Origin: Cupriavidus taiwanensis
GTDB lineage: Bacteria; Pseudomonadota; Gammaproteobacteria; Burkholderiales; Burkholderiaceae
Length of the DNA stretch: 64,000 nt
Assembly: GCF_900250115.1 (NCBI RefSeq)
Contig: NZ_LT984804.1
Span: 1,255,301-1,319,300, forward strand
Reading direction: 5' to 3'
The notes under the pieces are model-generated. The model did no database searches. It worked only from the letters and a program-made list of their open reading frames with translations, and was not told where the DNA came from. Positions 6,999-55,642 of this stretch are shown piece by piece (position 1 is the stretch's first letter; every line of letters starts with the position of its first letter). A program made the position numbers and the translations under genes.

Positions 6999-8747
6999 AT
7001 GCTTAGAAGAATCATCACCCTTGCAGTGGCCGCCGCAGGACTCGCGGCCGTCAATAGTGCGCTTGCGCAGGCCGGAACGCGCATGGCGCAGTCGCCAGCC
7101 ATCGGGCAAATGGATTATGCGGTCATTGCGGCGCAGGGCGGCACGTCACCTGCTGGCACCACGTTCAGCACGGGCACCGCTGCCGCGCCCATGGTCCCCG
7201 CTCGAGCCGAAACGTCTCTGCCTGAGAGCGCTCCGCAGAACAACGACTACACCGCCAACATGGCGAGCGACGCCTTTGGCGCGCAGCTCTTCACCGGCGC
7301 GTTCAGCCGCGACAGCGCATCCATCTTCAATCCCAGCCACGTCATCTCCGTCGGTGACCGGATTCAGCTGAGGATCTGGAATGGCTACAACGTCGACACA
7401 GTGCTGACCGTAGACGCGGGCGGCACCATCCTGTTGCCCGAAATCGGCCCGTTCCGGGTGCAGGGCATCACCAACGGCAACCTGCAGACGGCAATCAGCA
7501 ATGCGCTGCGCCGGGTGTTTGCCAGCAAGGTGTCGATCTATGCCAGCCTGCTGGCAGCCCAACCGGTGCGCGTGTATGTGACCGGCGCTGTTCGCCGGCC
7601 CGGCATGTACGACGGCACGTCGAGCGACAGCGTGCTCCGCTATCTCGACCAGGCCGGCGGTATCGATCCGGACCGCGGATCGTTCCTGGATGTCGCGATC
7701 AAGCGTGGCAACCAGACGCTGGAAGTCGTGAACCTTTATGACTTCCTGCTGAAAGGCGATCTGACTTCCCGGCAACTGAACAACGGCGACGTCATTTTCG
7801 TCCAGTCCCGCAAGAAGACCGTTAAGGTCAGCGGTCTGGCAGAAAACGCAAAGCGATTCGAGTTCATGGGCGACCAGGCCCGCCTCGACCAGTTCGTCCG
7901 CCTGGCCAAGCCGCTGCCTGAAGCCACCAACGTGCGGGTGGTGCGCAACAGCGGAACTGTACGGAACGTCGAATACTTCCCCATCTCGCAAGGCAACCAG
8001 ATCGACCTGCGGGATGGCGACGAGATCGAATTCACGGCTGACAAGCGGCCGGGGACGATCACGGTCCGCGTTGAAGGCGAGCACACCGGCCCCCAGGAAT
8101 TTGTTCTGCCCTATGGCACCCGCATGGGCCACCTGCTCAGTCAGGTCCAGTTCACGCCGGAATCGGATTCTGAGAGCATCCAACTGTTCCGCCAGAGTGT
8201 GAAGGCACGACAGAAGGCATTGCTTGGTGCCACGCTGAAGACCCTAGAGTCCAGCGTATTGACCGCTCGCTCTGGGACGGCGGAGGAAGCTCAGCTGCGC
8301 AAGGAGGAAGCCGCACTGATGCTGCAGTGGGTGGAACGCGCAAAGAAGATTGAGCCCACCGGCCAGACATTGATTGCGAAATCCGAGGCCCGCAATGGTC
8401 TGCTTCTTGAAAATGGCGACATTCTTCGCGTGCCGGTGAAGGATGGTCTTGTGCTGGTCAGCGGCGAGGTGCTCTTTCCCAACGCCGTTGCCTATGACAA
8501 GAGCATGGACCTGGATGAATTCATCCAGCAGGCCGGAGGCTTTTCACAGAACGCTGACACGTCGCGCGTAATCATCGCGCACCGCGACGGTAGCTTCTCT
8601 GACGGCAAGAAGGATGGCGCGGTTCGAGCAGGCGACGAGATCATGGTGTTGCCGAAGGTGGACTTCAAGACGCGTCAGTTTGCGAAGGATGTCTTCCAAA
8701 TTCTTTACCAAATCGCCATTAGTGCGAAGGTAGTGCTGGGGTTATAA
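6999..8747 (+). CDS. kpsD: Capsule export outer-membrane/periplasmic channel protein KpsD
   Basis: A 582-residue polysaccharide export protein. It begins with a signal peptide (LRRIITLAVAAAGLAAVNSALA) that lacks a lipobox Cys, so it is probably not a lipoprotein, as for E. coli KpsD (about 558 residues) and unlike Wza. The poly-saccharide export domain is seen at ISVGDRIQLRIWNGYNVD near residue 115, followed by SLBB-type repeats (VRVYVTGAVRRPGMYDG; a later copy around LVLVSGEVLFPNAVAYD). It is expected to form the envelope-spanning exit route with KpsE. It sits at the end of the conserved export block; the composition changes sharply right after it. Confidence 0.92.
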   Translation: MLRRIITLAVAAAGLAAVNSALAQAGTRMAQSPAIGQMDYAVIAAQGGTSPAGTTFSTGTAAAPMVPARAETSLPESAPQNNDYTANMASDAFGAQLFTGAFSRDSASIFNPSHVISVGDRIQLRIWNGYNVDTVLTVDAGGTILLPEIGPFRVQGITNGNLQTAISNALRRVFASKVSIYASLLAAQPVRVYVTGAVRRPGMYDGTSSDSVLRYLDQAGGIDPDRGSFLDVAIKRGNQTLEVVNLYDFLLKGDLTSRQLNNGDVIFVQSRKKTVKVSGLAENAKRFEFMGDQARLDQFVRLAKPLPEATNVRVVRNSGTVRNVEYFPISQGNQIDLRDGDEIEFTADKRPGTITVRVEGEHTGPQEFVLPYGTRMGHLLSQVQFTPESDSESIQLFRQSVKARQKALLGATLKTLESSVLTARSGTAEEAQLRKEEAALMLQWVERAKKIEPTGQTLIAKSEARNGLLLENGDILRVPVKDGLVLVSGEVLFPNAVAYDKSMDLDEFIQQAGGFSQNADTSRVIIAHRDGSFSDGKKDGAVRAGDEIMVLPKVDFKTRQFAKDVFQILYQIAISAKVVLGL

Positions 8748-8757
8748 AGGTGGGTCA

Positions 8758-9780
8758 ATGAAAATTAACAATACGCCATATTTTAAAATTTCACGGCGCG
8801 ATTCAGATAGTCTTGTTGTTGCGTTTAGTTCCATTAATACACCACCTGGAAAGTTTCGCTTTAGCCGCCAACTCGAGGAAAGGGGTGTTAATGTTATTTA
8901 CCTGAATTGTGAAAATAATAGTTGGTATCTGGATGGGGTTCCGGGATTGGGAGATACGTTGGAGGATGCCGCCGCTGCTCTCCGCGACGTTATTCGCAGC
9001 GAGTTTCCAAAATGCAAAGTATATGCGTTAGGGTCATCTATGGGGGCAGCCGGACTCATAGGTATGCTACATAATGTAGAACTGGAGGGAGCATTCGCCT
9101 TCTGCCCAGAAATAGAGTTGTTTGGCGAACATACATTTAGTTCAAAGTATTTCCACGGCCGATTTCAATCCAAAAAGGACTATTTTGGGGAGCTGAAATC
9201 GTTCCGTAATCTGACCATATTCTATGGTGAGGAATGTGAGCCGGATCTTCGTCAAATACGACTTCAACTCGACCGTGGTTTTGGAAATATTCGTACGATA
9301 GCGAACGAAGGGCACGGGGTCGTGGAGGCTATTTATCTCACTGAGGGATTGCACTCGGTTTTAGATGGGCTCTTGTCTGCGAAGGCACCTAATCCAAAAG
9401 TACTATCTTTTGGAGACGTTTCGATGCATCCAGGTGCTTGCAGCGTTCTTTGGAGAGCGTATAAATCTTGGCGCTCTCCAGGGGCTGCTTTATTACGAAA
9501 GGATCTGCTGGCATATGTCGAACGGACTCCTCCCAGCACCAGCTACTACCCCAATATCCTGTACTGGCTGAGTCGCTGCACCGAAGATGGAAAAGAGAGT
9601 GCTGAGTGGATAACCCGCGCATTCTTTGCAGCACCTAGTTCCCTGAGGACTGCGCATAGATTTTTTCAGTGCGTTAGGCCTGGGGATGATTTGAGAAAGC
9701 TATATAAATTTCAGTTCCTCGATAAGTTTGGGCAGCAGTACGTTGACAACACACGGGCAAAACTATTTCATGAACTCTAA
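8758..9780 (+). CDS. Alpha/beta-hydrolase-like protein of the serotype-specific capsule region
   Basis: A 340-residue protein not recognised as a named family member. The N-terminal 200 residues look like an alpha/beta hydrolase: the nucleophile elbow ALGSSMGAAG puts Ser94 in a GxSxG context, Asp163 lies in EECEPD, and His186 in ANEGHGVVE, giving a plausible catalytic triad. Ester or amide hydrolysis, for example removal of acyl groups from the capsule, is an inference. The C-terminal 140 residues are helical in character and of unknown role. The coding DNA is visibly AT-rich compared with its neighbours, as is usual for serotype-specific capsule genes gained by transfer. Its stop overlaps the next gene by 11 bases. 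No signal peptide is seen, so it probably acts in the cytoplasm. Confidence 0.75.
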   Translation: MKINNTPYFKISRRDSDSLVVAFSSINTPPGKFRFSRQLEERGVNVIYLNCENNSWYLDGVPGLGDTLEDAAAALRDVIRSEFPKCKVYALGSSMGAAGLIGMLHNVELEGAFAFCPEIELFGEHTFSSKYFHGRFQSKKDYFGELKSFRNLTIFYGEECEPDLRQIRLQLDRGFGNIRTIANEGHGVVEAIYLTEGLHSVLDGLLSAKAPNPKVLSFGDVSMHPGACSVLWRAYKSWRSPGAALLRKDLLAYVERTPPSTSYYPNILYWLSRCTEDGKESAEWITRAFFAAPSSLRTAHRFFQCVRPGDDLRKLYKFQFLDKFGQQYVDNTRAKLFHEL

Positions 9781-12700
9781 TAACTTCAAAGCGGTCGTTA
9801 TTTGTTGCGATTTTCTGATGACCCGCCCTGAGACGCAACGATACCATCACTCCTGGTTCATGCGACTTCTCTCCCGTGCTCTGTCGTCAGCGCTAGATTG
9901 TTCCATCGGAGAATTCATTTGTGAAAATGAATCGGGTGCTGTCGCTCGGAAGGAGTTTTTTCGTCGGAGTGGTATTGAGCTGAATGTGGATTCAACCCAT
10001 TTTTATTTCGACCCTAATAGCATTACTGATGAGTCCGTAGATTACTTGAAAAGCAATCTTGAGGGTAGTCTGATCGTTGGTTACGAAATATCTGAAGAGA
10101 CGCGGAATATCATTGCTCGTGCTGGTTTGATATATGTTGATATTTGGTTGCATCCCATAAGGTTCATGGATGACAACTTTTTTGCATTTAAATCAAATTC
10201 ACCCGAGATAAATTCAAGACTGCAAAAATCATCGCTCGATACTCGGGTATTTGGTCTTTACGCTGATAAGCTAAGGATTCAATCCGTCATGGGGTGGAAT
10301 AAGTTTAAAAAATCCCTTGAGAATAAGCTCGTTGATGGCTCTTGCCTTTTTGTGGGGCAAACGCTTACAGATAAGGCTGTGTGCAAACGTGGCAAAATGC
10401 TCAACGTTTTAGATTTCAAGGAAGAATTTGCCGGGCTGACAAAAAACCATAGGCATGTCTATTTTTCGAGACACCCGCTGCTTAAGGGCGGCGACGAGGA
10501 CCAGTTGGCATTTTTGAAGGAGTTTAAAAATGTCTCGCTTGTGTCCGAACCGGGCTACAAACTACTGTGCGTGGATGCGATAGAGAAGGTTGCGGCGATC
10601 TCTTCTTCGTTGGTCTATGAGGCGAGCTATTTTTCGAAGCAAACCGAGTATTTTTATAGGCCAATAGTTCCAGTTAACGAATTGGAAGGTGATGGTGGCT
10701 ATTTTTCCCTTTATCATAAACTCCACAGACCTGATTTTTGGGAGCAATTATTTCTTGGTATTATCCAAACACGGAAGAATGTGCCGCAGTATGATTTTCT
10801 GCGAGGGGAGAATACCTATAGGGATATGCTTTCTCTGTATTACAACAATCACGTTTTTGATAGGTCTCAATACGTATATTCGAAGCTCGATGCAGGCGCG
10901 CTAAAGAAAGAGCCAGCCGCAGCAAAAAAAGAAGGTCTTCCCGTATCGGGTTTGTATTCAAATTCCATTGCGCTGGATAGGATAAAAAAGCAGATTGACG
11001 GATTCGATGTAATCTCCTTCGACCTTTTCGATACATTGGTGGAGCGGAGTGTCGGCCGACCTTCAGATGTTCTACGAATTGTCGGCGAGCATGCCTGCGC
11101 GAAGTATGGCGTCGATGCGGACGCATTTGTGAAGGCGAGGCAATCGGCAAAACAGTACAGCGCATTTCAAGAAGAGACTCCACTCGTAGACAGATACGAG
11201 ATACTTTGTCGCAATCTTTTGCTTCCCGTAGAAGCTAAGACGGACTTGTATGAAAAGGAACTTGAGGTCGAACGTGCTCTGCTGCACCCGCGTACCATTG
11301 GTATTGAGTTGGTGAAATTTGCACGATCAAAAGGCAAGCGAGTGATCGTTGTATCCGACACGTATTTTAATCTTCAATTCGTTAGCGAAATAATCGAAAA
11401 CTTGAAGATTTCAGTGGATTGCGTTTACGTGTCTTCGGACTTCGATGAAACAAAAGAGAGCGGTAAGTTGTATGCTACCGTGAAGCTCAAAGAGAATGAT
11501 GCGAGAATTCTCCATATAGGGGATAGCTTGCGGTCCGATTATCATAGTGCAAAAAAGGCTGGTATTTCTGCAGTATGGTTGAAATCAAACTTCGATCAGA
11601 TCAAATCGTCAATCCTTGGTTTCAAGGAGCTGGATGGTAAATGTTCGAGTTTGAGGAATGGGGTTATTCAGCGTAATCTCGCAAAGTATCCGGTTATTGC
11701 CAATAACCCCGGCTACTCGCAAGGCAAGGCATACAATTTAGGTTATAACGTAATCGGCGATGTACTGCTGGGATATGTCAGTTGGATTGTCGATCGGGCG
11801 AGAGTGGATAAGGTATCTAAAATCTATTTCCTCGCGCGTGACGGGAAAATTGCTTACCGAATCTACAACGTCTTGAAGAAGATGGCCCCCGATCTGGTGC
11901 CGCCGGCGCATTACCTTTTGGCTTCACGCCGTGCCTTGCGCGTTGCTTCACTCCAATCAGAGCAAGACGTGCGCGATGAGGTGGATGTGTTTCTGAGCGA
12001 GATTTCAAAAATTCGCCATCGAGTGGATTTGGCCACCCATCTATCGTCAAGGTTCGGTTTGCCTGCTACGAAGCTCGCGGAGATTGGACTGCCTATACAT
12101 TTCGAGGTTGAAAGCGGTAAGGGCATGTTAGCTCTACGAGAGTTTCTCGCATCGGTTCTCTTTGTGCAGGGCGTGCTAGAAAATGCGCAGCGTGAGAGGG
12201 AATCTTATCTTTCGTATTGTAAGGAGCATGGGCTTTCCGTGGACTCTGATGACAGAGTTGCCTTTGTTGATATTGGTCATAATGGGACTTTGCAGAGCAG
12301 TCTGGCAAAATTGCTTAGGCTGCAGAACACTATTGGCTACTATTTCTGCACATACACGAAAATCGATGATGTTCTCGGTATGGTTCCGGGCTCGCATAAG
12401 GGCTTCGGGTATTATCGCGATAGACTGGCGCCATCCGACAGAAGCGAAGATTACATCAAATATGCACTTTTGATCGAAACAATATTTTTGAGTTCGGATG
12501 ATAGTTTTGTATGCTTCAATCGTTCGAGTGAAAATGTACTCGAGCCGGTCTACTTAAAAATTGACGGCGAGCAAAAACGTAAGGGGTTAGCTGTCGATCT
12601 TCATAAGGGCGTTGTGGCCTATTCGATCGATTTTTGTAATGAGGCGGCAAAAGTTCTGCCGATGTCATTCGATTGGATTTCCAAATTGGCGACGATCGGA

Positions 12701-13126
12701 TCCGTCGAGCGGCTATTTAATTTATTTAAAAAGCCGGATTGGCGCGATGCGAGCATTTTTTCTGGAGTTGTCCTGGAAAATTATTTTTCGGGAAGAGATG
12801 TGCGATATATTGTCCCGCCATTGGATAACCTGGGTGCGATTGCGCTGTGGAGAGAGGGGGTTCAGATATTGAAGGCGCAGAATAAGGCTGAAGATCCCGT
12901 AAGGAAGGAGGCGCAGACTCCAGCTCATACAGGCCGAATGCGACAACTTGGGTGTGACCTCGCTGTCCGAGCGATGGACCTTTTTATTGTTCCGGCAGGA
13001 ATCATGGTTGATGATCGTCGTAGGAGAAAGTACCTGCGCGATAAGAATAGATTTTATTTGGATTCGCGGCACGAACTGCTTCGAATGATTTGGAAGGGAT
13101 CTCGATATTCAAAAGTGATGTCGTAA
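9770..13126 (+). CDS. Large multidomain capsule-synthesis protein with HAD phosphatase domain
   Basis: An 1118-residue protein encoded by AT-rich DNA. Three regions can be seen. Residues 1 to about 400 contain patches (YFSRHPLLKGGDED; a later stretch VAAISSSLVYEASYF) that resemble the C-terminal lobe of KpsC/KpsS-like GT-B transferases. Residues about 412-625 are a complete HAD hydrolase domain: motif I FDLFDTLVERS, motif II VIVVSDTYF, a Lys region, and motif IV HIGDSLRSDYHSA. The last 490 residues (with KIYFLARDGKIAYRIYNVL and VAFVDIGHNGTLQSSLAK) match the tail seen in large HAD-type proteins of surface-polysaccharide loci. It is one of only two genes between kpsD and kdsA, so it is the main candidate for building the capsule repeat. 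The exact reaction is unknown. The ATG at 9770 overlaps the preceding gene. Confidence 0.75.
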   Translation: MNSNNFKAVVICCDFLMTRPETQRYHHSWFMRLLSRALSSALDCSIGEFICENESGAVARKEFFRRSGIELNVDSTHFYFDPNSITDESVDYLKSNLEGSLIVGYEISEETRNIIARAGLIYVDIWLHPIRFMDDNFFAFKSNSPEINSRLQKSSLDTRVFGLYADKLRIQSVMGWNKFKKSLENKLVDGSCLFVGQTLTDKAVCKRGKMLNVLDFKEEFAGLTKNHRHVYFSRHPLLKGGDEDQLAFLKEFKNVSLVSEPGYKLLCVDAIEKVAAISSSLVYEASYFSKQTEYFYRPIVPVNELEGDGGYFSLYHKLHRPDFWEQLFLGIIQTRKNVPQYDFLRGENTYRDMLSLYYNNHVFDRSQYVYSKLDAGALKKEPAAAKKEGLPVSGLYSNSIALDRIKKQIDGFDVISFDLFDTLVERSVGRPSDVLRIVGEHACAKYGVDADAFVKARQSAKQYSAFQEETPLVDRYEILCRNLLLPVEAKTDLYEKELEVERALLHPRTIGIELVKFARSKGKRVIVVSDTYFNLQFVSEIIENLKISVDCVYVSSDFDETKESGKLYATVKLKENDARILHIGDSLRSDYHSAKKAGISAVWLKSNFDQIKSSILGFKELDGKCSSLRNGVIQRNLAKYPVIANNPGYSQGKAYNLGYNVIGDVLLGYVSWIVDRARVDKVSKIYFLARDGKIAYRIYNVLKKMAPDLVPPAHYLLASRRALRVASLQSEQDVRDEVDVFLSEISKIRHRVDLATHLSSRFGLPATKLAEIGLPIHFEVESGKGMLALREFLASVLFVQGVLENAQRERESYLSYCKEHGLSVDSDDRVAFVDIGHNGTLQSSLAKLLRLQNTIGYYFCTYTKIDDVLGMVPGSHKGFGYYRDRLAPSDRSEDYIKYALLIETIFLSSDDSFVCFNRSSENVLEPVYLKIDGEQKRKGLAVDLHKGVVAYSIDFCNEAAKVLPMSFDWISKLATIGSVERLFNLFKKPDWRDASIFSGVVLENYFSGRDVRYIVPPLDNLGAIALWREGVQILKAQNKAEDPVRKEAQTPAHTGRMRQLGCDLAVRAMDLFIVPAGIMVDDRRRRKYLRDKNRFYLDSRHELLRMIWKGSRYSKVMS

Positions 13127-13147
13127 TAAATATCGTTGATTAATTGA

Positions 13148-13999
<852 letters not shown>

Positions 14000-14012
14000 T
14001 GGAGCTGATCTC

Positions 14013-48013: not shown

Positions 48014-49375
48014 TCACACCAGCGTGGCCAGGCCCAGCGTGAGCAGCAGCGCCACCACCGAAATGATGGTTTCGCAGACCGACCAGGTCTTGAAGGTCTG
48101 GGCCACGGTCATGTTGAAGTACTCCTTGACCAGCCAGAAGCCACCGTCGTTCACGTGCGACAGGATCAGCGAGCCGGCGCCGGTGGTCAGCACCAGCAGT
48201 TCCGGGCGGGTGCCGGGCACGCTGGCGGCAATCGGCGCGACGATGCCCGCGGCGGTGGTCATGGCAACGGTTGCCGAACCGGTGGCGATGCGGATCATCA
48301 CCGCGACCAGCCAGCCCAGCACCAGCACCGACACATTGGCCCCGGTGGCAACGTCGACGATGGCGGTGGAGATGCCCGAGTCGCGCAGGATGCGGCCGAA
48401 GCCGCCGCCGGCACCGACCACCAGCGTGATGATGGCGGTGGGCGCCACGCACTCGTTGGTGAACTTGAGGATGGTCTCGCGATTGAAGCCGCGCGCCTTG
48501 CCGAAGGTGTAGAAGCTCACCAGCGCGGCAATCAGCAGCGCCATCACCGAATTGCCGATCAGCTTGAGGAAATCGTTGGCGAAGGTCTTGGGCGTGGTGA
48601 ACAGGTCGGCCCAGCTGCCGATCAGCATCAGCACCACCGGCAGCAGGATGGTGAACACCGTGATGCCGAAGCCTGGCAGTTCATGCGATTCCTTGACGCG
48701 CTCATCCTCTTCGGTGAACTGCTCGGCCAGCGGGTTGACTTCGGGCAGCTTGACGTAGCGGTCCATCAGCCGGGCGAACAGCGGACCCGCCAGCGCCGCG
48801 GTCGGGATGCCCACAATCAGCGCGTACATGATGGTCTTGCCGATGTCGGCGCCGTATGCGGTCACGGCCAGCAGCGCGGCCGGGTGCGGCGGGATCAGGC
48901 CGTGCACCACCGACAGGCCGGCCACCATCGGAATGCCGACCAGCACCATCGACGTGCCGGTGCGCTTGGCGACGTTGAAGGCGATCGGCACCAGCAGCAC
49001 GAAGCCCACTTCGAAGAACACCGGCAGGCCGACGATAAACGCGATGGTGGCCATGGCCCAATGCACGTTCTTCGCGCCGAAGAAATCGATCAGCGTGTTG
49101 GCGATGCGCTCGGCGCCGCCGGACTCCGCCATCATCTTGCCCAGCATGGTGCCCAGTCCCACCACCAGCGCAATATGGCCAAGGGTGCCGCCGACACCGG
49201 CCTCAAAGGACTTGACGATGTCGCTCATCGGCATGCCGACGGCAAAGCCGAGCAGCACCGAAACGACGACCAGGGTAATGAAGGGATTGAGCTTGTAGCG
49301 CGCAATCAGCACGACCAGTGCGATCACTGCGATCAGCGCATACACCAAGAGCGTGGTTCCGGTGACGGCACCCAT
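48014..49375 (-). CDS. GntP-family gluconate/sugar-acid permease
   Basis: A 453-residue permease of the GntP family (proton symporters for gluconate and similar acids) with 12-14 hydrophobic segments. Marks are RYKLNPFITLVVVSVLLGFA near residue 30, IALVVGLGTMLGKMMAESGGAERIA, HPAALLAVTAYGADIGKT, SHVNDGGFWLVKEYFNM and TWSVCETIISVVALLLTL at the end. In its operon (rpiR, deacylase, ridA) it may carry an amino-sugar acid such as N-acetylglucosaminate rather than gluconate; this is an inference. It is the last gene, 231 bases after ridA with REP-like sequence in between. Confidence 0.92.
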   Translation of the reverse strand: MGAVTGTTLLVYALIAVIALVVLIARYKLNPFITLVVVSVLLGFAVGMPMSDIVKSFEAGVGGTLGHIALVVGLGTMLGKMMAESGGAERIANTLIDFFGAKNVHWAMATIAFIVGLPVFFEVGFVLLVPIAFNVAKRTGTSMVLVGIPMVAGLSVVHGLIPPHPAALLAVTAYGADIGKTIMYALIVGIPTAALAGPLFARLMDRYVKLPEVNPLAEQFTEEDERVKESHELPGFGITVFTILLPVVLMLIGSWADLFTTPKTFANDFLKLIGNSVMALLIAALVSFYTFGKARGFNRETILKFTNECVAPTAIITLVVGAGGGFGRILRDSGISTAIVDVATGANVSVLVLGWLVAVMIRIATGSATVAMTTAAGIVAPIAASVPGTRPELLVLTTGAGSLILSHVNDGGFWLVKEYFNMTVAQTFKTWSVCETIISVVALLLTLGLATLV

Positions 49376-49513
49376 ATTGTCTCCTTGCGTGGAAAAAGAG
49401 CCGCTTGTGGCGGCAGCAGAGCTTTGGCTTTCTTGTTTCTCTCGCGGTGCGGGAGAGGCGGAGGGGAAGCGGGCACGCGCGGCAAGCGCCCTGGCGGCTC
49501 ACATTGTGGTGAC

Positions 49514-49562
49514 GCCGGCCCTCTCCCCCGGGCCCCTCTCCCGCGGGCGGGAGAGGGGAGCA
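49514..49562. repeat. REP-like palindromic element, third copy
   Basis: CCCCTCTCCCGC (49533-49544), GG, GCGGGAGAGGGG (49547-49558) is the same 26-base palindrome as at 31600 and 31744 with only the loop changed. The preceding GCCGGCCCTCTCCCCC also matches the flank of the second copy. A degenerate inverted partner (CTCTCGCGGTGCGGGAGAGG, near 49439-49458) suggests a decayed pair. It lies between ridA and gntP and could act in mRNA stability. Confidence 0.8.
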
Positions 49563-49606
49563 AACAGTCAGGAATGGTTAGTCAAGCAAGCAGGCAGGCA
49601 GCAGGC

Positions 49607-49999
49607 TCAGGCTGCCGGCTTCTTGTAGGCGATGCAGTCGACCTCGACCTTGCAATCGACCACCATGCTCGATTGCACGCAGGCGCGCGCGGGCGGGTTG
49701 GCGCCGAAGTATTCCTTGAAGATCTTGTTGAACGAGGCGAAGTCGCGCGTGTCGTCCAGCCACACGCCGCAGCGCACGACGTGCTCGGGGCCGTAGCCGG
49801 CCTCGGCCAGGATCGCCAGCACGTTCTTGATGGCCTGGTGGGTCTGGGGCACGATGCCGCCGTCGATGACCTCGCCGTTGACCATCGGCACCTGGCCGGA
49901 GACGTAGAGCCAGCCATCGGCCGCGACCGCGCGCGCAAAGGGCATGTGCTGGCCGCCGGTACCGGTGCCGCCTTCGACGCCGAATCGTTTGATGTCCAT
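49607..49999 (-). CDS. RidA-family deaminase-like protein
   Basis: A 130-residue YjgF/RidA-type protein. The motif PPARACVQSSMVVDCKVEVDCIAY contains the conserved Arg that binds the carboxylate of the imine substrate. RidA proteins hydrolyse reactive enamine/imine products released by PLP-dependent deaminases. The operon lies back to back with such a deaminase (52645-53913), which fits that role. ATG 49999 has AGGAG about 7 bases upstream; the longer frame is not supported. It lies between the D-aminoacylase and gntP genes. Confidence 0.9.
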   Translation of the reverse strand: MDIKRFGVEGGTGTGGQHMPFARAVAADGWLYVSGQVPMVNGEVIDGGIVPQTHQAIKNVLAILAEAGYGPEHVVRCGVWLDDTRDFASFNKIFKEYFGANPPARACVQSSMVVDCKVEVDCIAYKKPAA

Positions 50000-50051
50000 G
50001 GGTACTCCTGGAAATGAGTTGGATAGGGGAGGGAGCGGCGGTGCGTGCGGG

Positions 50052-51506
50052 TCAGTCCGCCCCGCGGGGCAGGAACCGGCCGGCGCGCACGCCGGTGCTC
50101 TGGCGCTGCTGCCATGACAGCTCGCCGTTGACCCAGACCGAGGCAATGCCCTCGGCCGGTTGCATCGGATCGGTAAAGCTGGCCGCGTCGCGGATCGTGG
50201 CGGCGTCGAACAGCACGAGGTCGGCCCAATAGCCCTCGCGCACGAAGCCGCGCCGGTGCAGGCCGAAGCGTTCGGCCGACATGCCGGTCATCTTGTTGAC
50301 GGCCACGGTCAGCGGAAACAGCTCGCGGTCGCGCGCGTAGTGGCCGAGCACGCGCGGGAACGCGCCCCACAGGCGCGGATGCGGCAGCGGGTCGTTGGGC
50401 AGTCCGTCCGAGCCCACCACCGTGGCCGGGTGGCTCAGGATGCGGTCGACATCGGCGTCTTCCATGCAGTGGTAGACCGCGCCGGCGGGCATCAGCCGGC
50501 GCGCGGCTTGGTGCAGGTCCACCTGCCATTCGGCGGCGATGTCGGCGAGCAGCCGGCCGCCCATCTCGGGCGCACCTTCCGACCAGGTCACCATGATGTC
50601 GAAGTCGCCGGTGACCTGCTTCAGGTCCAGCGTGGACGAACTGGCGGTGTAGGGATAGCAGTCGCAGCCGACCGGCTGCCAGCGCTGCGCGCCGTCGAGC
50701 GCGTCCAGCACTTCGGTGCTGCGGCCCCAGTTGGCCACGCCGGCGCATTTCAGGTGCGAGATCACCACCGGTACGCGCGCATCGCGGCCGATGCGGAAGG
50801 CCTCGTCCATGGCCTCGAGGATCTCGGCGAATTCGCTGCGCAAGTGGGTGGCGTAGAGCGCGCCGGCCTTGGCCAGCGGCTCGGCCAGCGCCAGCACTTC
50901 CTCGGTCGGCGCGCTGAAGGCGTTGGCGTAGGCGAGGCCGGTCGACAGGCCCAGCGCGCCGTGCCGCAGCGCTTCTTCCAGCTGCGCGCGCATCGCCTCG
51001 ATTTCCTGCGGCGTGGCGGCGCGGTCGAAGCGGTCCATATGGTTGCTGCGCAGCGCGGTATGGCCGACCAGCGCGGCGACATTGACCGCGGGCTGCGCGG
51101 CCTCGACCGCATCGACATAGGCCTTGAAATCCGGATAGCGGAAGGCGTCGGCATGGCCGAGCAGGTTCATCGGGTCGGGCGGATCGCCCGCCAGCGTCAC
51201 CGGCGCGGCGCTGATGCCGCAGTTGCCGACCACCACCGTGGTCACGCCCTGCGACAGCTTGGGTGTCATCTCCGGCTGGCGCACCACGTTGGTGTCGTCG
51301 TGGGTATGCACGTCGATAAAGCCGGGTGCGAGCACCAGGCCATCGCCCTCGACCACGTGCGCGGCCGCATCGGGGTCGATCGCGCCGGGGGCGTCGATGC
51401 GGGCAATGCGGCCATCGCGCAAGGCCACGTCGGCCAGGCGCGCGGCCGCACCGGAGCCGTCGATCAGCGTGACGCAGCGGATCAGGGTATCGAACAGGTG
51501 TGGCAT
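50052..51506 (-). CDS. N-acyl-D-amino-acid deacylase (D-aminoacylase type)
   Basis: A 484-residue amidohydrolase. The metal site is APGFIDVHTHDDTNVV (HxH); GNCGISAAP supplies the Cys typical of D-aminoacylases; YATHLRSE and VISHLKCAGVANWG supply the further His; and VVGSDGLPNDPLPHPR the catalytic Asp. It removes the acyl group from N-acyl-D-amino acids. D-Glucosaminate is a D-type 2-amino acid, so N-acetyl-D-glucosaminate would be a logical substrate given the kdgK and eda genes nearby; this is an inference. ATG 51506 lies two bases after the rpiR stop, so it is coupled. Confidence 0.88.
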   Translation of the reverse strand: MPHLFDTLIRCVTLIDGSGAAARLADVALRDGRIARIDAPGAIDPDAAAHVVEGDGLVLAPGFIDVHTHDDTNVVRQPEMTPKLSQGVTTVVVGNCGISAAPVTLAGDPPDPMNLLGHADAFRYPDFKAYVDAVEAAQPAVNVAALVGHTALRSNHMDRFDRAATPQEIEAMRAQLEEALRHGALGLSTGLAYANAFSAPTEEVLALAEPLAKAGALYATHLRSEFAEILEAMDEAFRIGRDARVPVVISHLKCAGVANWGRSTEVLDALDGAQRWQPVGCDCYPYTASSSTLDLKQVTGDFDIMVTWSEGAPEMGGRLLADIAAEWQVDLHQAARRLMPAGAVYHCMEDADVDRILSHPATVVGSDGLPNDPLPHPRLWGAFPRVLGHYARDRELFPLTVAVNKMTGMSAERFGLHRRGFVREGYWADLVLFDAATIRDAASFTDPMQPAEGIASVWVNGELSWQQRQSTGVRAGRFLPRGAD

Positions 51507-51508
51507 GG

Positions 51509-52414
51509 TCAGTCTCCCAGCGGCTGGCGGCTGTCGGGGCCCTTGCCGGGGCCGCTTTCGCCGCGGTGGCTGTCGAGCACGTACTTGAGCCGGCGCAGGC
51601 GCTCCTTGCTCTGGTCCGGCTGCAACAGTGCGCACTGCGTCGCCAGCACGTCCAGCACCATCAGCATGGCGTAGCGCGAGGCCGATGGCTTGAAAATGAA
51701 ATCCGTCTCCAGCGTGCGCACCGGCAGCAGCACCTCGGCGCGTGCCGCCAGCGGCGAGCCCAGCGCGGTCACGGCCACCAGGCGGGCGCCATACTCGCGC
51801 GCGATATCGCAGCTGGCCAGCATCTCCGGCACGCGGCCACTGGCCGAAAAGGCCAGCACCACGTCGTCGCGGCCCAGCGTCGCCGCCACCATCTTCTGCA
51901 GCAGGGCGTCCTGGTAACTGGCCACCGGCAGCCCCAGTCGCGCCAGCCGGTGGCGCGCTTCATCGGCCATGAACGACGAGCCGCCGCCCATGCCAAAAGC
52001 GTAGACCATGCGTGCGCCCAGCAACAGGCGCGCGGCCTGCTCGATACGATCGGTATCGAGCAGGCCGCGGTTGGCTTCCAGCGCGGTGAGGATATCGGCG
52101 TGGATGCTGTCGGCGAGCGTGGCGGGCGCGGCTGCAGCGGCGGGAACGTTGCCGGGCTGCAGGAAGCGCGCGCCCACCGCCGCGGCCTGGGCCAGGCGCA
52201 GCTTCAGGTCGCGCACGTCGCGGCAACCGATGGCCTTGGCGAAGCGCGTCACGCTGGCTTCGCTGACGCCGGCCTGGCGGGCCAGTTCGTTGATGCTCGC
52301 CGCCGCCGCGCCGGCCAGGTCTTCGAGCACCACCTGCGCCACCTTCTGCTCGGCCAGGCGCAGCGCGGGGCCGCGCTCGGCGATGCGGGTCAGGATGTCG
52401 AAGGGCGCGGTCAT
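51509..52414 (-). CDS. RpiR/MurR-family transcriptional regulator
   Basis: A 301-residue regulator with an N-terminal helix-turn-helix of the RpiR type (INELARQAGVSEASVTRFAKAIGCRDVRDLK in part) and a C-terminal SIS sugar-phosphate-binding domain (MVYAFGMGGGSSFMADEARHRL in part; VLAFSASGRVPEMLASCDIA; ALGSPLAARAEVLLPV). The effector is likely a sugar phosphate such as KDPG, as for HexR. It is the first gene of the - strand operon and is divergent from the deaminase-kdgK-eda operon, so it can control both sides. A candidate operator lies at 52582-52599. Confidence 0.92.
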   Translation of the reverse strand: MTAPFDILTRIAERGPALRLAEQKVAQVVLEDLAGAAAASINELARQAGVSEASVTRFAKAIGCRDVRDLKLRLAQAAAVGARFLQPGNVPAAAAAPATLADSIHADILTALEANRGLLDTDRIEQAARLLLGARMVYAFGMGGGSSFMADEARHRLARLGLPVASYQDALLQKMVAATLGRDDVVLAFSASGRVPEMLASCDIAREYGARLVAVTALGSPLAARAEVLLPVRTLETDFIFKPSASRYAMLMVLDVLATQCALLQPDQSKERLRRLKYVLDSHRGESGPGKGPDSRQPLGD

Positions 52415-52581
52415 GTCTGGTGGCGGGGGCGAGGTGGCGCAGCGGGTTCGAATCGATATGTGACGAGATCTGCAGCCGGTGCGGGCAGGGGCTATAACAG
52501 TGACTGGCGCCTTGTGGTGAGCGCCCTTGCCGGCAGCGCACGGTTGCTGTCGCAGCCTCGTGTGTTACTTTATAACAAGGA

Positions 52582-52599
52582 TGAAATATCTTATTTTCA
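52582..52599. promoter_or_regulatory. Candidate RpiR operator
   Basis: TGAAA (52582-52586), eight bases and TTTCA (52595-52599) form an 18-base interrupted palindrome in the AT-rich part of the divergent promoter region, 45 bases before the deaminase start. TGAAA-N-TTTCA half sites occur among RpiR-family operators. The assignment rests on symmetry and position only. Confidence 0.45.
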
Positions 52600-52644
52600 G
52601 GGATATCATTACGTCAATCAGATTTTTTCAGGGTGATGACAGGC

Positions 52645-53913
52645 ATGCGTGAAATAAAGTATCAGGCTGGCGTGATCGATCCGCTCAACAAGGCGCTGGG
52701 GCGGATGGAGGCGCCGATTGCCCCGGACGCGGCTGGCCAGACCGGCTGGAACCTGTTGCAGGAAGAACTGAGCCTGCCGGCGGCGGTGCTGTATGAAGAC
52801 CGTCTTGCGCACAACCTGGAGTGGATGCGCCGCTTCATGAACGAATACGGCGTGCAGCTGGCGCCGCATGGCAAGACCACCATGGCGCCCAAGCTGTTTG
52901 CCCGGCAGCTCGGCGCCGGCGCGTGGGGCATCACCCTGGCCACCGCGCACCAGACCGCGGCCGCGCATGCGCACGGCGTCAAGCGCGTGCTGATGGCCAA
53001 CCAGCTGGTCGGCCGCCGGAATATGGAAATCATCGCAGACCTGCTGCGCGACCCGGGGTTCGAATTCTTCGCGCTGGTGGATTCGGCCGAGCTGGTCGAC
53101 CAGCTCGGCAAGTTCTTCAAGCAGCGCGGACAGACGCTGCAGGTGCTGCTGGAGCTCGGCGTCGAAGGCGGGCGCACCGGCGTGCGCGACGACGCGCAGC
53201 AGCAAGCCGTGCTCGACGCGCTGGCGCGCTGGCCCGAGGCCTTGTCGCTGGCCGGCGTGGAAATCTACGAGGGCGTGCTGAAGGAAGAAGCCGATATCCG
53301 CAAGTTCCTGCAGCGCACCGTGGCGGTGACCAAGCAACTGGCCGCGCAGGGGCGCTTTGGCCGCAGCCCGGTGGTGATGTCGGGTGCGGGTTCCGCCTGG
53401 TACGATGTGGTGGCCGAGGAGTTCGCGCGCACCGACATTGGTGCGCCGCTCGACATCGTGCTGCGCCCCGGCTGCTACCTGACGCACGATGTGGGCATCT
53501 ACCGAGCCGCGCAGCAGCGCATCCTGGCGAGCAACCCGGTCGCGCAGAAGCTGCGCGAGGGCTTGCTGCCGGCACTGCAGCTGTGGGCCTATGTCCAGTC
53601 GATTCCGGAACCCGACCGCGTCATCATCGGCATGGGCAAGCGCGATGCCGCGTTCGACGCCGGCATGCCGATCCCCGCGCGCCGCTACCGTCCCGGTGAA
53701 GAAGCGCCGGTGGACGTGCCCGCGCATTGGGAGGTCACTGGCATGATGGACCAGCACGCCTATCTGCAGATCCGGCCGGGCGACGACATCCGGGTCGGCG
53801 ACATGATCGCCTTCGATATCTCGCACCCGTGCCTGACCTTCGACAAGTGGCGCCATATCCCGGTGCTCGACCGCGACATGCGCGTGATCGACATCGTGCA
53901 AACCTTCTTCTGA
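52645..53913 (+). CDS. Fold-type III PLP amino-acid deaminase (D-serine dehydratase / D-glucosaminate deaminase type)
   Basis: A 422-residue PLP enzyme of the alanine-racemase-like fold. The PLP lysine is in QLAPHGKTTMAPKLFARQL, and the C-terminal zinc-binding His and Cys are in DISHPCLTFDKWRHIP, as in DSD1-type D-serine dehydratases and D-threonine aldolases. It should remove ammonia from a D-2-amino acid with a hydroxyl at C3, giving a 2-oxo acid. Followed by KDG kinase and KDPG aldolase, a substrate of D-glucosaminate (product 2-keto-3-deoxygluconate) fits best; this is inferred. GTG 52633 and ATG 52636 are also in frame; 52645 is preferred because GGTGAT lies 7 bases before it. Confidence 0.85.
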   Translation: MREIKYQAGVIDPLNKALGRMEAPIAPDAAGQTGWNLLQEELSLPAAVLYEDRLAHNLEWMRRFMNEYGVQLAPHGKTTMAPKLFARQLGAGAWGITLATAHQTAAAHAHGVKRVLMANQLVGRRNMEIIADLLRDPGFEFFALVDSAELVDQLGKFFKQRGQTLQVLLELGVEGGRTGVRDDAQQQAVLDALARWPEALSLAGVEIYEGVLKEEADIRKFLQRTVAVTKQLAAQGRFGRSPVVMSGAGSAWYDVVAEEFARTDIGAPLDIVLRPGCYLTHDVGIYRAAQQRILASNPVAQKLREGLLPALQLWAYVQSIPEPDRVIIGMGKRDAAFDAGMPIPARRYRPGEEAPVDVPAHWEVTGMMDQHAYLQIRPGDDIRVGDMIAFDISHPCLTFDKWRHIPVLDRDMRVIDIVQTFF

Positions 53914-53926
53914 GGCAAGCAGCCCC

Positions 53927-54862
53927 ATGAGCATCGACATCCTGGCCTATGGCGAGCCGCTGGTTGAATTCAACCAGCAGCCGGACGATCCGTCGCGCTA
54001 CCTGCAGGGCTTCGGCGGCGATACCTCCAACTTCTGCATTGCCGCTGCGCGCCAGGGCGCGAGCACCGGCTATATCTGCGCGGTCGGTGCCGATACCTTC
54101 GGCGAGCGCCTGCGCGCACTGTGGACGCAGGAACGCGTCGACACGCGGCATGTGCACATCGACGCGGGCGCCCCCACCGGGGTCTACTTTGTCTCGCACG
54201 ACAGCCACGGCCACCGCTTCGACTACCTGCGCGAAGGCTCCGCTGCCAGCCGCTACCAGCATGAGCAGCTGCCGCTGGGCGCGATCGCGTCGGCGCGCTA
54301 CCTGCACCTGTCGGGCATCAGTCTCGCCATCAGCACCAGCGCGTGCGATGCCGGCCTGGATGCGATGGAGCACGCGCGCAAGGCCGGCACCAGGGTCACG
54401 CTGGACACCAACCTGCGCCTGCGACTGTGGTCGCTGGCGCGCGCGCGCGGCATCATGCGCGAAGCCTTCCGGATGACCGACGTGTGCCTGCCCAGCTGGG
54501 ACGACATCACCGTGCTGACCGGGCTGGACGACCGCGACGCGATTGCCGACTACCTGCTCGGTTGCGGCATCGGCCTGGTCGCGCTCAAGCTGGGGGAAGA
54601 GGGCTCGTACATCGCGACGCCCGAGTCCCGCAGCCTGGTGCCGGCCTATCCGGTCAAGCCGGTCGATGCCACCGGCGCGGGCGACTGCTTCGGTGGCAGC
54701 TTCGTCGCGCGGCTGGCGGCGGGCGCCGATCCGTTCGAGGCCGCGCGCTATGCCAATGTGGCGGCAGCGCTGTCCACCACCGGCTATGGCGCGGTGGCGC
54801 CGATTCCCGATGCGCAGACCGTGCTGGCGCGACTGGCGCAGTCGGTATCGGTGATCGCCTGA
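53927..54862 (+). CDS. kdgK: 2-keto-3-deoxygluconate kinase
   Basis: A 311-residue PfkB-family sugar kinase phosphorylating 2-keto-3-deoxygluconate to KDPG. Marks are ILAYGEPLVEFNQ at the start, the substrate loop GFGGDTSNFCIAAARQGA, VTLDTNLRLRLW, the aspartate-bearing PfkB signature PVKPVDATGAGDCFGGSFVA (Asp as base, anion hole GAGD), and the length. It lies 13 bases after the deaminase gene and 51 before eda. The order deaminase-kinase-aldolase mirrors the pathway. Confidence 0.93.
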   Translation: MSIDILAYGEPLVEFNQQPDDPSRYLQGFGGDTSNFCIAAARQGASTGYICAVGADTFGERLRALWTQERVDTRHVHIDAGAPTGVYFVSHDSHGHRFDYLREGSAASRYQHEQLPLGAIASARYLHLSGISLAISTSACDAGLDAMEHARKAGTRVTLDTNLRLRLWSLARARGIMREAFRMTDVCLPSWDDITVLTGLDDRDAIADYLLGCGIGLVALKLGEEGSYIATPESRSLVPAYPVKPVDATGAGDCFGGSFVARLAAGADPFEAARYANVAAALSTTGYGAVAPIPDAQTVLARLAQSVSVIA

Positions 54863-54913
54863 GCCGCTGCCCCAACCCGATGCTTTCCTGAACCCACATA
54901 CCGCGAGATCCCC

Positions 54914-55558
54914 ATGTCAAACCAGACTTCCCCGCTGCTTCAACGCCTTGCCGATGTGCCGGTGATCCCGGTGCTGGAATTCCACTCGGTCGACGAGGCC
55001 CTGCATGTCAGCGAGGCGCTGGTGACGGGGGGCTTGCCGCTGCTGGAGATCACGCTGCGCACCCCGGTGGCGCTGGAAGCGATCCGTGCCGTCGCGGCGG
55101 CGCTGCCACAAGCGTGCGTGGGCGCGGGCACGGTGCTGAACGTGGAGCAACTGCACGCGGTGCGCGACGCGGGCGCCCAGTTTGCTGTTTCGCCCGGCCT
55201 GACGCCGACCCTGGCCGCGGGCGCGCAAGACGCGGGCATTTCGCTGCTGCCGGGCGTGGCCACGGCCAGCGAGGCCATGGCGGCGCTGGAAGCCGGCTTC
55301 ACGTTCCTCAAGTTCTTCCCGGCGCAGGCCGCGGGCGGGGTGCCGATGCTGAAGTCGCTGGGCGGGCCGCTGCCGCAGCTGCGTTTCTGCCCGACCGGCG
55401 GCATCGATGCCGCGCTGGCGCCGTCGTACCTGGCGCTGCCCAATGTGGTGTGCGTGGGCGGTTCGTGGGTGGTCCCCAAGGATGCCGTCGCCGGTGCTGA
55501 CTGGGGCCGCATCCGCGCGCTGGCGGAACAGGCCAGGGCCCTGCGCGCCAGGTCCTGA
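54914..55558 (+). CDS. eda: KDPG aldolase
   Basis: A 214-residue class I aldolase splitting 2-keto-3-deoxy-6-phosphogluconate to pyruvate and glyceraldehyde 3-phosphate. The catalytic Glu is in LLEITLRTPVALEAIR, the Schiff-base Lys in FTFLKFFPAQAAGG, and the phosphate loop in RFCPTGGID with VCVGGSWVVPKD. It is the last gene of the operon; a strong bidirectional terminator begins 28 bases after its stop. Confidence 0.95.
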   Translation: MSNQTSPLLQRLADVPVIPVLEFHSVDEALHVSEALVTGGLPLLEITLRTPVALEAIRAVAAALPQACVGAGTVLNVEQLHAVRDAGAQFAVSPGLTPTLAAGAQDAGISLLPGVATASEAMAALEAGFTFLKFFPAQAAGGVPMLKSLGGPLPQLRFCPTGGIDAALAPSYLALPNVVCVGGSWVVPKDAVAGADWGRIRALAEQARALRARS

Positions 55559-55586
55559 GCCGGCGCGGCAGCCCGCGACCGACAAA

Positions 55587-55620
55587 GCAAAACGGCACGC
55601 CATCGGGCGTGCCGTTTTGC
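55587..55620. terminator. Bidirectional intrinsic terminator
   Basis: GCAAAACGGCACGCC (55587-55601), loop ATCG, GGCGTGCCGTTTTGC (55606-55620): a perfect 15-bp stem with A and T tracts at the outer ends, so it should work in both directions. It ends transcripts of eda (+) and of the entericidin-like gene (-). Confidence 0.9.
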
Positions 55621-55642
55621 TGTCGATGCAGCCCTGGCCGGC

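Follow-up and report, generated by a model that had tools for sequence, protein, structure and literature searches.

Gene content of the divergent operons

The window analysed here is a stretch of 64,000 nucleotides from Cupriavidus taiwanensis (assembly GCF_900250115.1, contig NZ_LT984804.1, positions 1,255,301 to 1,319,300 of the forward strand). Within it we studied seven genes at 48014-55558 that very probably form an ong-type cluster for the catabolism of N-acetyl-D-glucosaminate (GlcNAc1A), in a form that scavenges the monomer. The host assembly comprises 7.0 Mb in three contigs, with a completeness rating of 100%. A first-pass annotation had described the genes as two divergent operons around an RpiR regulator. 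Inspection of open reading frames (ORFs) and profile searches recovered all seven frames and matched every family it had named (GntP, RidA, Amidohydro_3, RpiR, fold-type III deaminase, PfkB and 2-keto-3-deoxy-6-phosphogluconate (KDPG) aldolase). The divergence of the operons held, but the regulator does not lie between them: it heads the leftward operon, which reads ongR, ongB, ridA (ongD) and gntP, the rightward one reading ongC, kdgK and kdgA.

On the reverse strand, ongR (51509-52414) encodes a putative MurR/RpiR-family repressor with HTH_6 and SIS domains, whose best NCBIfam score is to HexR, under the cut-off of that model; its coding sequence also holds a perfect 17-bp inverted repeat (52031-52069). 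The product of ongB (50052-51506; likely start 51506), a predicted GlcNAc1A deacetylase with a D-aminoacylase-like fold, belongs to the Amidohydro_3 family (128 bits), and its best solved relatives are OngB of Pseudoalteromonas prydzensis (PpOngB) and D-aminoacylases. The RidA gene (49607-49999; PF01042, 94 bits) probably starts at 49999, both this start and that of ongB being the first internal ATG of the translated frame, and would encode an OngD-like imine/enamine hydrolase aiding OngC. The GntP-family permease (48014-49375; PF02447, 549 bits; TIGR00791, 499 bits) is the candidate importer of GlcNAc1A or D-glucosaminate. On the forward strand, ongC encodes a fold-type III pyridoxal phosphate (PLP) deaminase with D-ser_dehydrat and Ala_racemase_N domains; its ORF spans 52633-53913, and alignment to PDB entry 3gwq places the probable start at the ATG at 52645. 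It contains the PHGKT and HPC motifs, to which we presume PLP and zinc roles, respectively. The proposed 2-keto-3-deoxygluconate (KDG) kinase KdgK (53927-54862; PF00294, 189 bits) scores best, among NCBIfam models, with the KDG/2-keto-3-deoxygalactonate (KDGal) kinase (188 bits, under its cut-off of 400), and its solved relatives include the archaeal KDG kinase 1wye. KdgA (54914-55558; PF01081, 237 bits) scores above the TIGR01182 cut-off, its solved relatives being KDPG aldolases. The forward strand has, 28 bases past kdgA, a perfect inverted repeat of 16 bp (55586-55621) that might terminate the rightward operon, although the terminator scan did not include it among its reported terminators.

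Arranged by their predicted chemistry, these proteins would form a catabolic route. GntP would import GlcNAc1A (or D-glucosaminate), OngB would strip the acetate to give D-glucosaminate, and OngC would remove ammonia by way of an enamine/imine to give KDG, OngD probably accelerating hydrolysis of the imine. KdgK would then convert KDG to KDPG, which KdgA would cleave into pyruvate and glyceraldehyde-3-phosphate. OngR, for its part, would repress both operons from a single palindrome between them, and either the substrate or a pathway intermediate would release it. The order of uptake, N-deacetylation, deamination, phosphorylation and cleavage proposed in the first-pass annotation coincides with that of the ong pathway of P. 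prydzensis ACAM 620, which was demonstrated in 2022 by knock-outs, enzyme assays and mass spectrometry (PMC9537276). There, OngB deacetylates GlcNAc1A, OngC makes KDG and ammonia, and KdgK makes KDPG, the aldolase step being presented as a hypothesis (PMC9537276). The enzyme activities given here for the host organism are all predictions from sequence, which supports the gene identities, the OngB active site, the grouping of OngC, the gene linkage and the palindrome.

Specificity of OngB, OngC and OngD

The proteins used for comparison with P. prydzensis were taken from a locus of a metagenome-assembled genome (MAG; locus L031) in which the genes stand in the published order. Window OngB is 54% identical to its OngB. 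The paper on the PpOngB structure lists the metal, catalytic and GlcNAc1A-contact residues (PMC12017989), and 19 of 20 active-site residues of PpOngB are identical in the window protein, including all those that contact O3, O4, O5 and O6 in the PpOngB-GlcNAc1A complex. Over the respective alignments, identity amounts to 53% with PpOngB (PDB 9kb1) and 63% with PDB chain 9g5m, the listed active-site residues agreeing in both cases except at position 348, which is G in PpOngB, C in window OngB and N in 9g5m. The reading of the substrate as an N-acyl-D-glucosaminate is supported by the retention of a GlcNAc1A-specific active site.

The fold families would equally suit the degradation of N-acyl-D-amino acids or of D-serine and D-threonine, in which a D-aminoacylase, a deaminase and RidA would deliver a 2-keto acid, with no part for the kinase or the aldolase. 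The D-aminoacylase AfDam (1m7j) shares with window OngB its fold family, 49% identity and the metal- and carboxylate-binding residues. However, AfDam has only 14 of the 20 PpOngB active-site residues, and it differs in the side-chain pocket, at S290, S292, Q298, A193 and A256, all kept in window OngB, and also at 348. The hydrophobic side-chain pocket of the AfDam type is not matched, the window protein having A193, A256 and Q298 where that type has F, M and a residue other than Q; position 298 of AfDam is R in our sequence alignment and Leu298 in the structural comparison of PMC12017989, a non-Q residue either way.

Q298 is conserved in all of 80 named OngB homologues. These are the ones nearest PpOngB among the matches listed and not a census; entries from the host genome itself or from very close ones may be missing. 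The residue is also found in 20 of the 22 homologues from the order Burkholderiales. The two exceptions (L138 in genome G013 and L140 in G061) have Y298, T292 and F193 despite OngB-, OngC-, RpiR- and RidA-like genes nearby, and these look-alike clusters may serve N-acyl-D-amino acids. Their existence lends some weight to the D-amino-acid alternative and means that gene order alone is not diagnostic of an ong cluster, the assignment requiring the residues.

Window OngC is 46% identical to P. prydzensis OngC, and its closest relatives among the matches listed are Cupriavidus proteins, with 98% identity to one named C. alkaliphilus. Since eight Burkholderiales paralogues reach 43-45% identity to the window protein, identity alone was uninformative and a tree of 54 rows was built. 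With midpoint rooting, a branch supported at 100/100 divides the 41 rows labelled as ong, on whose side window OngC falls, from the eight paralogues, which group separately. The 11 unlabelled rows are L034, L062, L120, L121, 3gwq and six paralogues; the ong loci L034 and L062 are unlabelled owing to the 52.5% cut-off on OngB and fall among the ong rows nonetheless. The nearest PDB entry to window OngC, 3gwq, was deposited as a D-serine deaminase, which would speak for D-amino-acid degradation, but it branches among ong-linked Paraburkholderia sequences and is probably itself an OngC named from family resemblance. The characterised OngC does deaminate D-serine and D-threonine as well (PMC9537276), so that a D-serine assay alone would be misleading, and the earlier assertion that no other substrate explains both the D-amino-acid and the KDG enzymes was too strong. 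Nevertheless, the operon headed by ongC also contains genes of the KDG kinase and KDPG aldolase types. We rejected the D-amino-acid pathway on the active-site residues of OngB, and consider it highly improbable.

The substrate might also be a sister acid: either an epimer, such as N-acetyl-D-galactosaminate leading to KDGal, or chiefly the unacetylated D-glucosaminate. The best kinase model covers both KDG and KDGal, and the residues contacting O3-O6 do not by sequence alone discriminate against an epimer. On the other hand, every one of these contact residues is identical to that of PpOngB; KdgA matches best the models for KDPG and 2-keto-4-hydroxyglutarate (KHG) aldolases, that for the 6-phosphate of KDGal (KDPGal) scoring far lower; and on D-glucosaminate alone the deacetylase would be needless. 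We hold a sister acid to be quite improbable, and GlcNAc1A the likelier substrate.

The window RidA is 63% identical to P. prydzensis OngD. In the alignment of OngD rows, selected at >50% identity to the window protein, S30, G31, R105 (which we take to be the catalytic arginine) and C107, numbered by what we assume to be the usual RidA positions, are invariant in 102 of 102 rows. E120 is present in every one of the 84 rows that extend to this position, and F replaces the usual RidA Y17 in all 102. This residue pattern is compatible with an imine hydrolase whose pocket is particular to the family. OngD is essential for growth of P. prydzensis and its role was stated to be unknown (PMC9537276).

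Gene linkage, the transporter and a predicted operator

Among the 80 named loci, all of which contain OngB by design, RidA is found in 79, OngC in 78 and RpiR in 76, and this linkage shows that the grouping of the ong genes is not due to chance. Searching 399 Burkholderiales genomes gave an OngC-like match (E <= 1e-40) in 38, of which 23 have at least 57% identity; the neighbourhoods of eight of the 15 genomes with weaker matches (<57%) were also taken in. OngB and RidA are encoded nearby in 21 of the 23 loci (window counted), the exceptions being L120, which lacks both, and L121, which ends at a contig edge. Locus counts in the two collections overlap, L117, L118, L122 and L125 probably being the same records as L106, L066, L102 and L099.

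The genes for transport are less constant. Relatives of the P. prydzensis transporter OngIT occur in 29 of the 80 named loci (two of them at just 27% identity) and genes like that for its periplasmic GH20 hexosaminidase OngA in 24, so that neither is a core feature. GntP is linked in 12 of the 23 Burkholderiales loci (window counted) and in 8 of the 80 named ones, and oligopeptide-type ABC components adjoin the ong core instead in Achromobacter (L085) and Bordetella (L056). What varies is thus the transporter, whereas OngB-OngC-OngD-OngR stay constant. Literature searches yielded no description of a GntP-type ong cluster that we recognised, and GntP does not appear in the main text of PMC9537276, supplements apart.

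It could be argued that GntP is a gluconate permease adjoining by chance and that GlcNAc1A enters through another carrier. The window protein is the single GntP match in the whole genome, and gntP is parted from ridA by 231 bases with a perfect 12-bp GC-rich inverted repeat (49533-49558); this repeat may be of the dispersed kind or form a structure that influences read-through into gntP. In addition, the ong-linked GntP of Amantichitinum ursilacus (L051, 5401-7253) adjoins a gluconokinase gene, and a GntP of this type may carry gluconate, possibly among other substrates. Against a chance neighbour stands the recurrence of the linkage, in differing gene orders, in Cupriavidus, Herbaspirillum, Andreprevotia, Cellvibrio, Pseudomonas helleri and an acidobacterial MAG. 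We regard an unrelated gluconate permease as unlikely, and GntP as the proposed GlcNAc1A importer.

Window OngR is 45% identical to that of P. prydzensis, which represses ongOT-1 and ongCRBD (PMC9537276). We counted all 5-base dyads with spacers of 2-11 bases upstream of ongC in 101 loci. TGTTA-N5-TAACA ranked first (25 of 101 loci; next dyad 17), other high-count dyads including TTGCG-N10 (17 of 101), and it also headed the count upstream of ongR (17 of 96 loci; next 7); in one mononucleotide shuffle used as control, no dyad reached three loci. In the window, the palindrome occurs exactly (TGTTA-CTTTA-TAACA, 52563-52577) in the gap between ongR and ongC, where it is predicted to be the OngR operator for both operons. 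Only 0.15 occurrences per 64 kb are expected even with one mismatch, and it is the sole exact copy in the 7.0-Mb genome, which has no copy of a reversed control pattern. Promoter-like hexamers beside it are weak, the promoter scan giving 2 sites where shuffles would give 0.9.

Outside the host, eight of 12 further OngC-bearing genomes have one exact palindrome each and four have none; six of the eight copies lie about 55-95 bases upstream of ongC, those of G098 and G283 being elsewhere. With one mismatch allowed, a site was assigned to a cluster gene in 70 of 103 ong loci and in none of eight paralogue loci. As AT-rich marine loci also give unassigned one-mismatch matches, exact sites alone carry weight there: the P. 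prydzensis locus has one, in the ongOT-1/ongC gap, and the Pseudoalteromonas loci L032-L034 have two, preceding both OngR-repressed operons. This operator prediction is new in the present analysis. No description of an OngR operator was recognised in our literature searches, and the main text of PMC9537276, supplements apart, mentions no palindrome, operator, binding site, electrophoretic mobility shift assay or motif.

Source of the substrate and comparison with known systems

Oxidised chitin products had been suggested as the natural source, and this is possible if they are scavenged. In profile searches of the host genome we found no match to a lytic polysaccharide monooxygenase (LPMO; PF03067), to GH20 or to GH18 (PF00704), and the host's own chitin oxidation was rejected as the source on these grounds. 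The genome does have two partial GH19-like matches (G000:C1:2427129-2427446 and G000:C1:820123-820416), both outside the cluster, which might be endolysin-type genes rather than chitinases. Given these missing matches, we consider it likelier that the host scavenges the monomer than that it degrades chitin, and infer that fungal or bacterial neighbours would supply the GlcNAc1A. Across the 23 OngC genomes, LPMO was matched in 9, GH20 in 9 and GH18 in 12 (11 over cut-off), with none of the three in 10; of the two congeners sampled, G158 has LPMO and GH18 and G314 has neither. LPMO is enriched with OngC (9 of 23 versus 17 of 376 other genomes; Fisher p = 2.2e-6, counting related genomes as independent). 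The pathway appears, then, to accompany chitin oxidation in part of the Burkholderiales and to be decoupled from it elsewhere, including in the host genome. The complete pathway together with an LPMO has been reported in just one betaproteobacterium, an Achromobacter (PMC9537276).

Besides the gluconokinase beside the A. ursilacus permease, several observations weigh against our interpretation. KdgK is just 29% identical to P. prydzensis KdgK and scores under every NCBIfam equivalog cut-off, C3 or C4 epimers of the substrate are also possible, and no LPMO, GH20 or GH18 match in the host genome accounts for the source of the substrate. As for the operator, 33 of 103 ong loci have no palindrome site even with one mismatch allowed (among them Bordetella, Achromobacter and Chitinibacteraceae-type clusters, whose regulators are more divergent), and the 12 other genomes together have 15 copies of the reversed control (0-3 each) but eight of the palindrome, so that the evidence lies in its position, not in its rarity.

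It is tempting to speculate, although we hold this slightly less likely than not, that many Burkholderiales scavenge GlcNAc1A of fungal or bacterial origin without an LPMO, through GntP or other transporters, that the OngR operator is conserved across Beta- and Gammaproteobacteria, and that OngD is a dedicated 2-imino-3-deoxygluconate hydrolase. If this tentative picture were true, such a role would explain why OngD is essential in P. prydzensis. By our main reading, the cluster extends a pathway known mainly from marine chitin degraders to bacteria that live in other habitats and have no chitin-oxidising enzyme, which suggests that GlcNAc1A is shared between organisms. Both the operator and the role of OngD are offered as testable predictions, and the database names "D-aminoacylase" and "D-serine deaminase" would be corrected.

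Elsewhere in the window, a stretch at 8001-14000 has a GC content of 44-51%, whereas most of the window is at about 68%, and is flanked by a polysaccharide-export gene and a cytidylyltransferase gene; it resembles an acquired region for capsule or surface polysaccharide. The sole match of a 1132-residue ORF within it (9728-13126) is a weak one to HAD-hydrolase.

Use of glucosaminate by Cupriavidus and Ralstonia was suggested in 2010 (PMC2842291), and the chemistry of the pathway, published in 2022, is not new; the novelty here is modest and consists of the GntP-type, monomer-only variant and the operator prediction. Comparison with described oxidative chitin pathways, which the first-pass annotation had recommended, shows that the core proteins are homologous to those of the ong cluster (45-63% identity). 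The window and P. prydzensis clusters have in common OngB, OngC, OngD and OngR homologues, a kinase of the PfkB family (in the window a proposed KDG kinase), the same predicted reactions and the same palindrome preceding ongC. They differ in that P. prydzensis has the SSS symporter OngIT where the window has GntP, and the outer-membrane receptor gene ongOT and the GH20 hexosaminidase gene ongA, both missing from the window cluster; the latter includes its own kdgA, unlike that of P. prydzensis, and its kinase is divergent (29% identity, as given above). In carrying a KDPG aldolase gene it resembles the ong clusters of Vibrio, Klebsiella and Serratia (PMC9537276), although the Vibrio loci compared, among the matches listed, mostly have OngIT-like transporters, unlike the window. 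Finally, a known system acting on a phosphorylated 2-amino sugar acid also leads to KDPG, whereas in the window cluster the deaminase would, by homology, act before the kinase.

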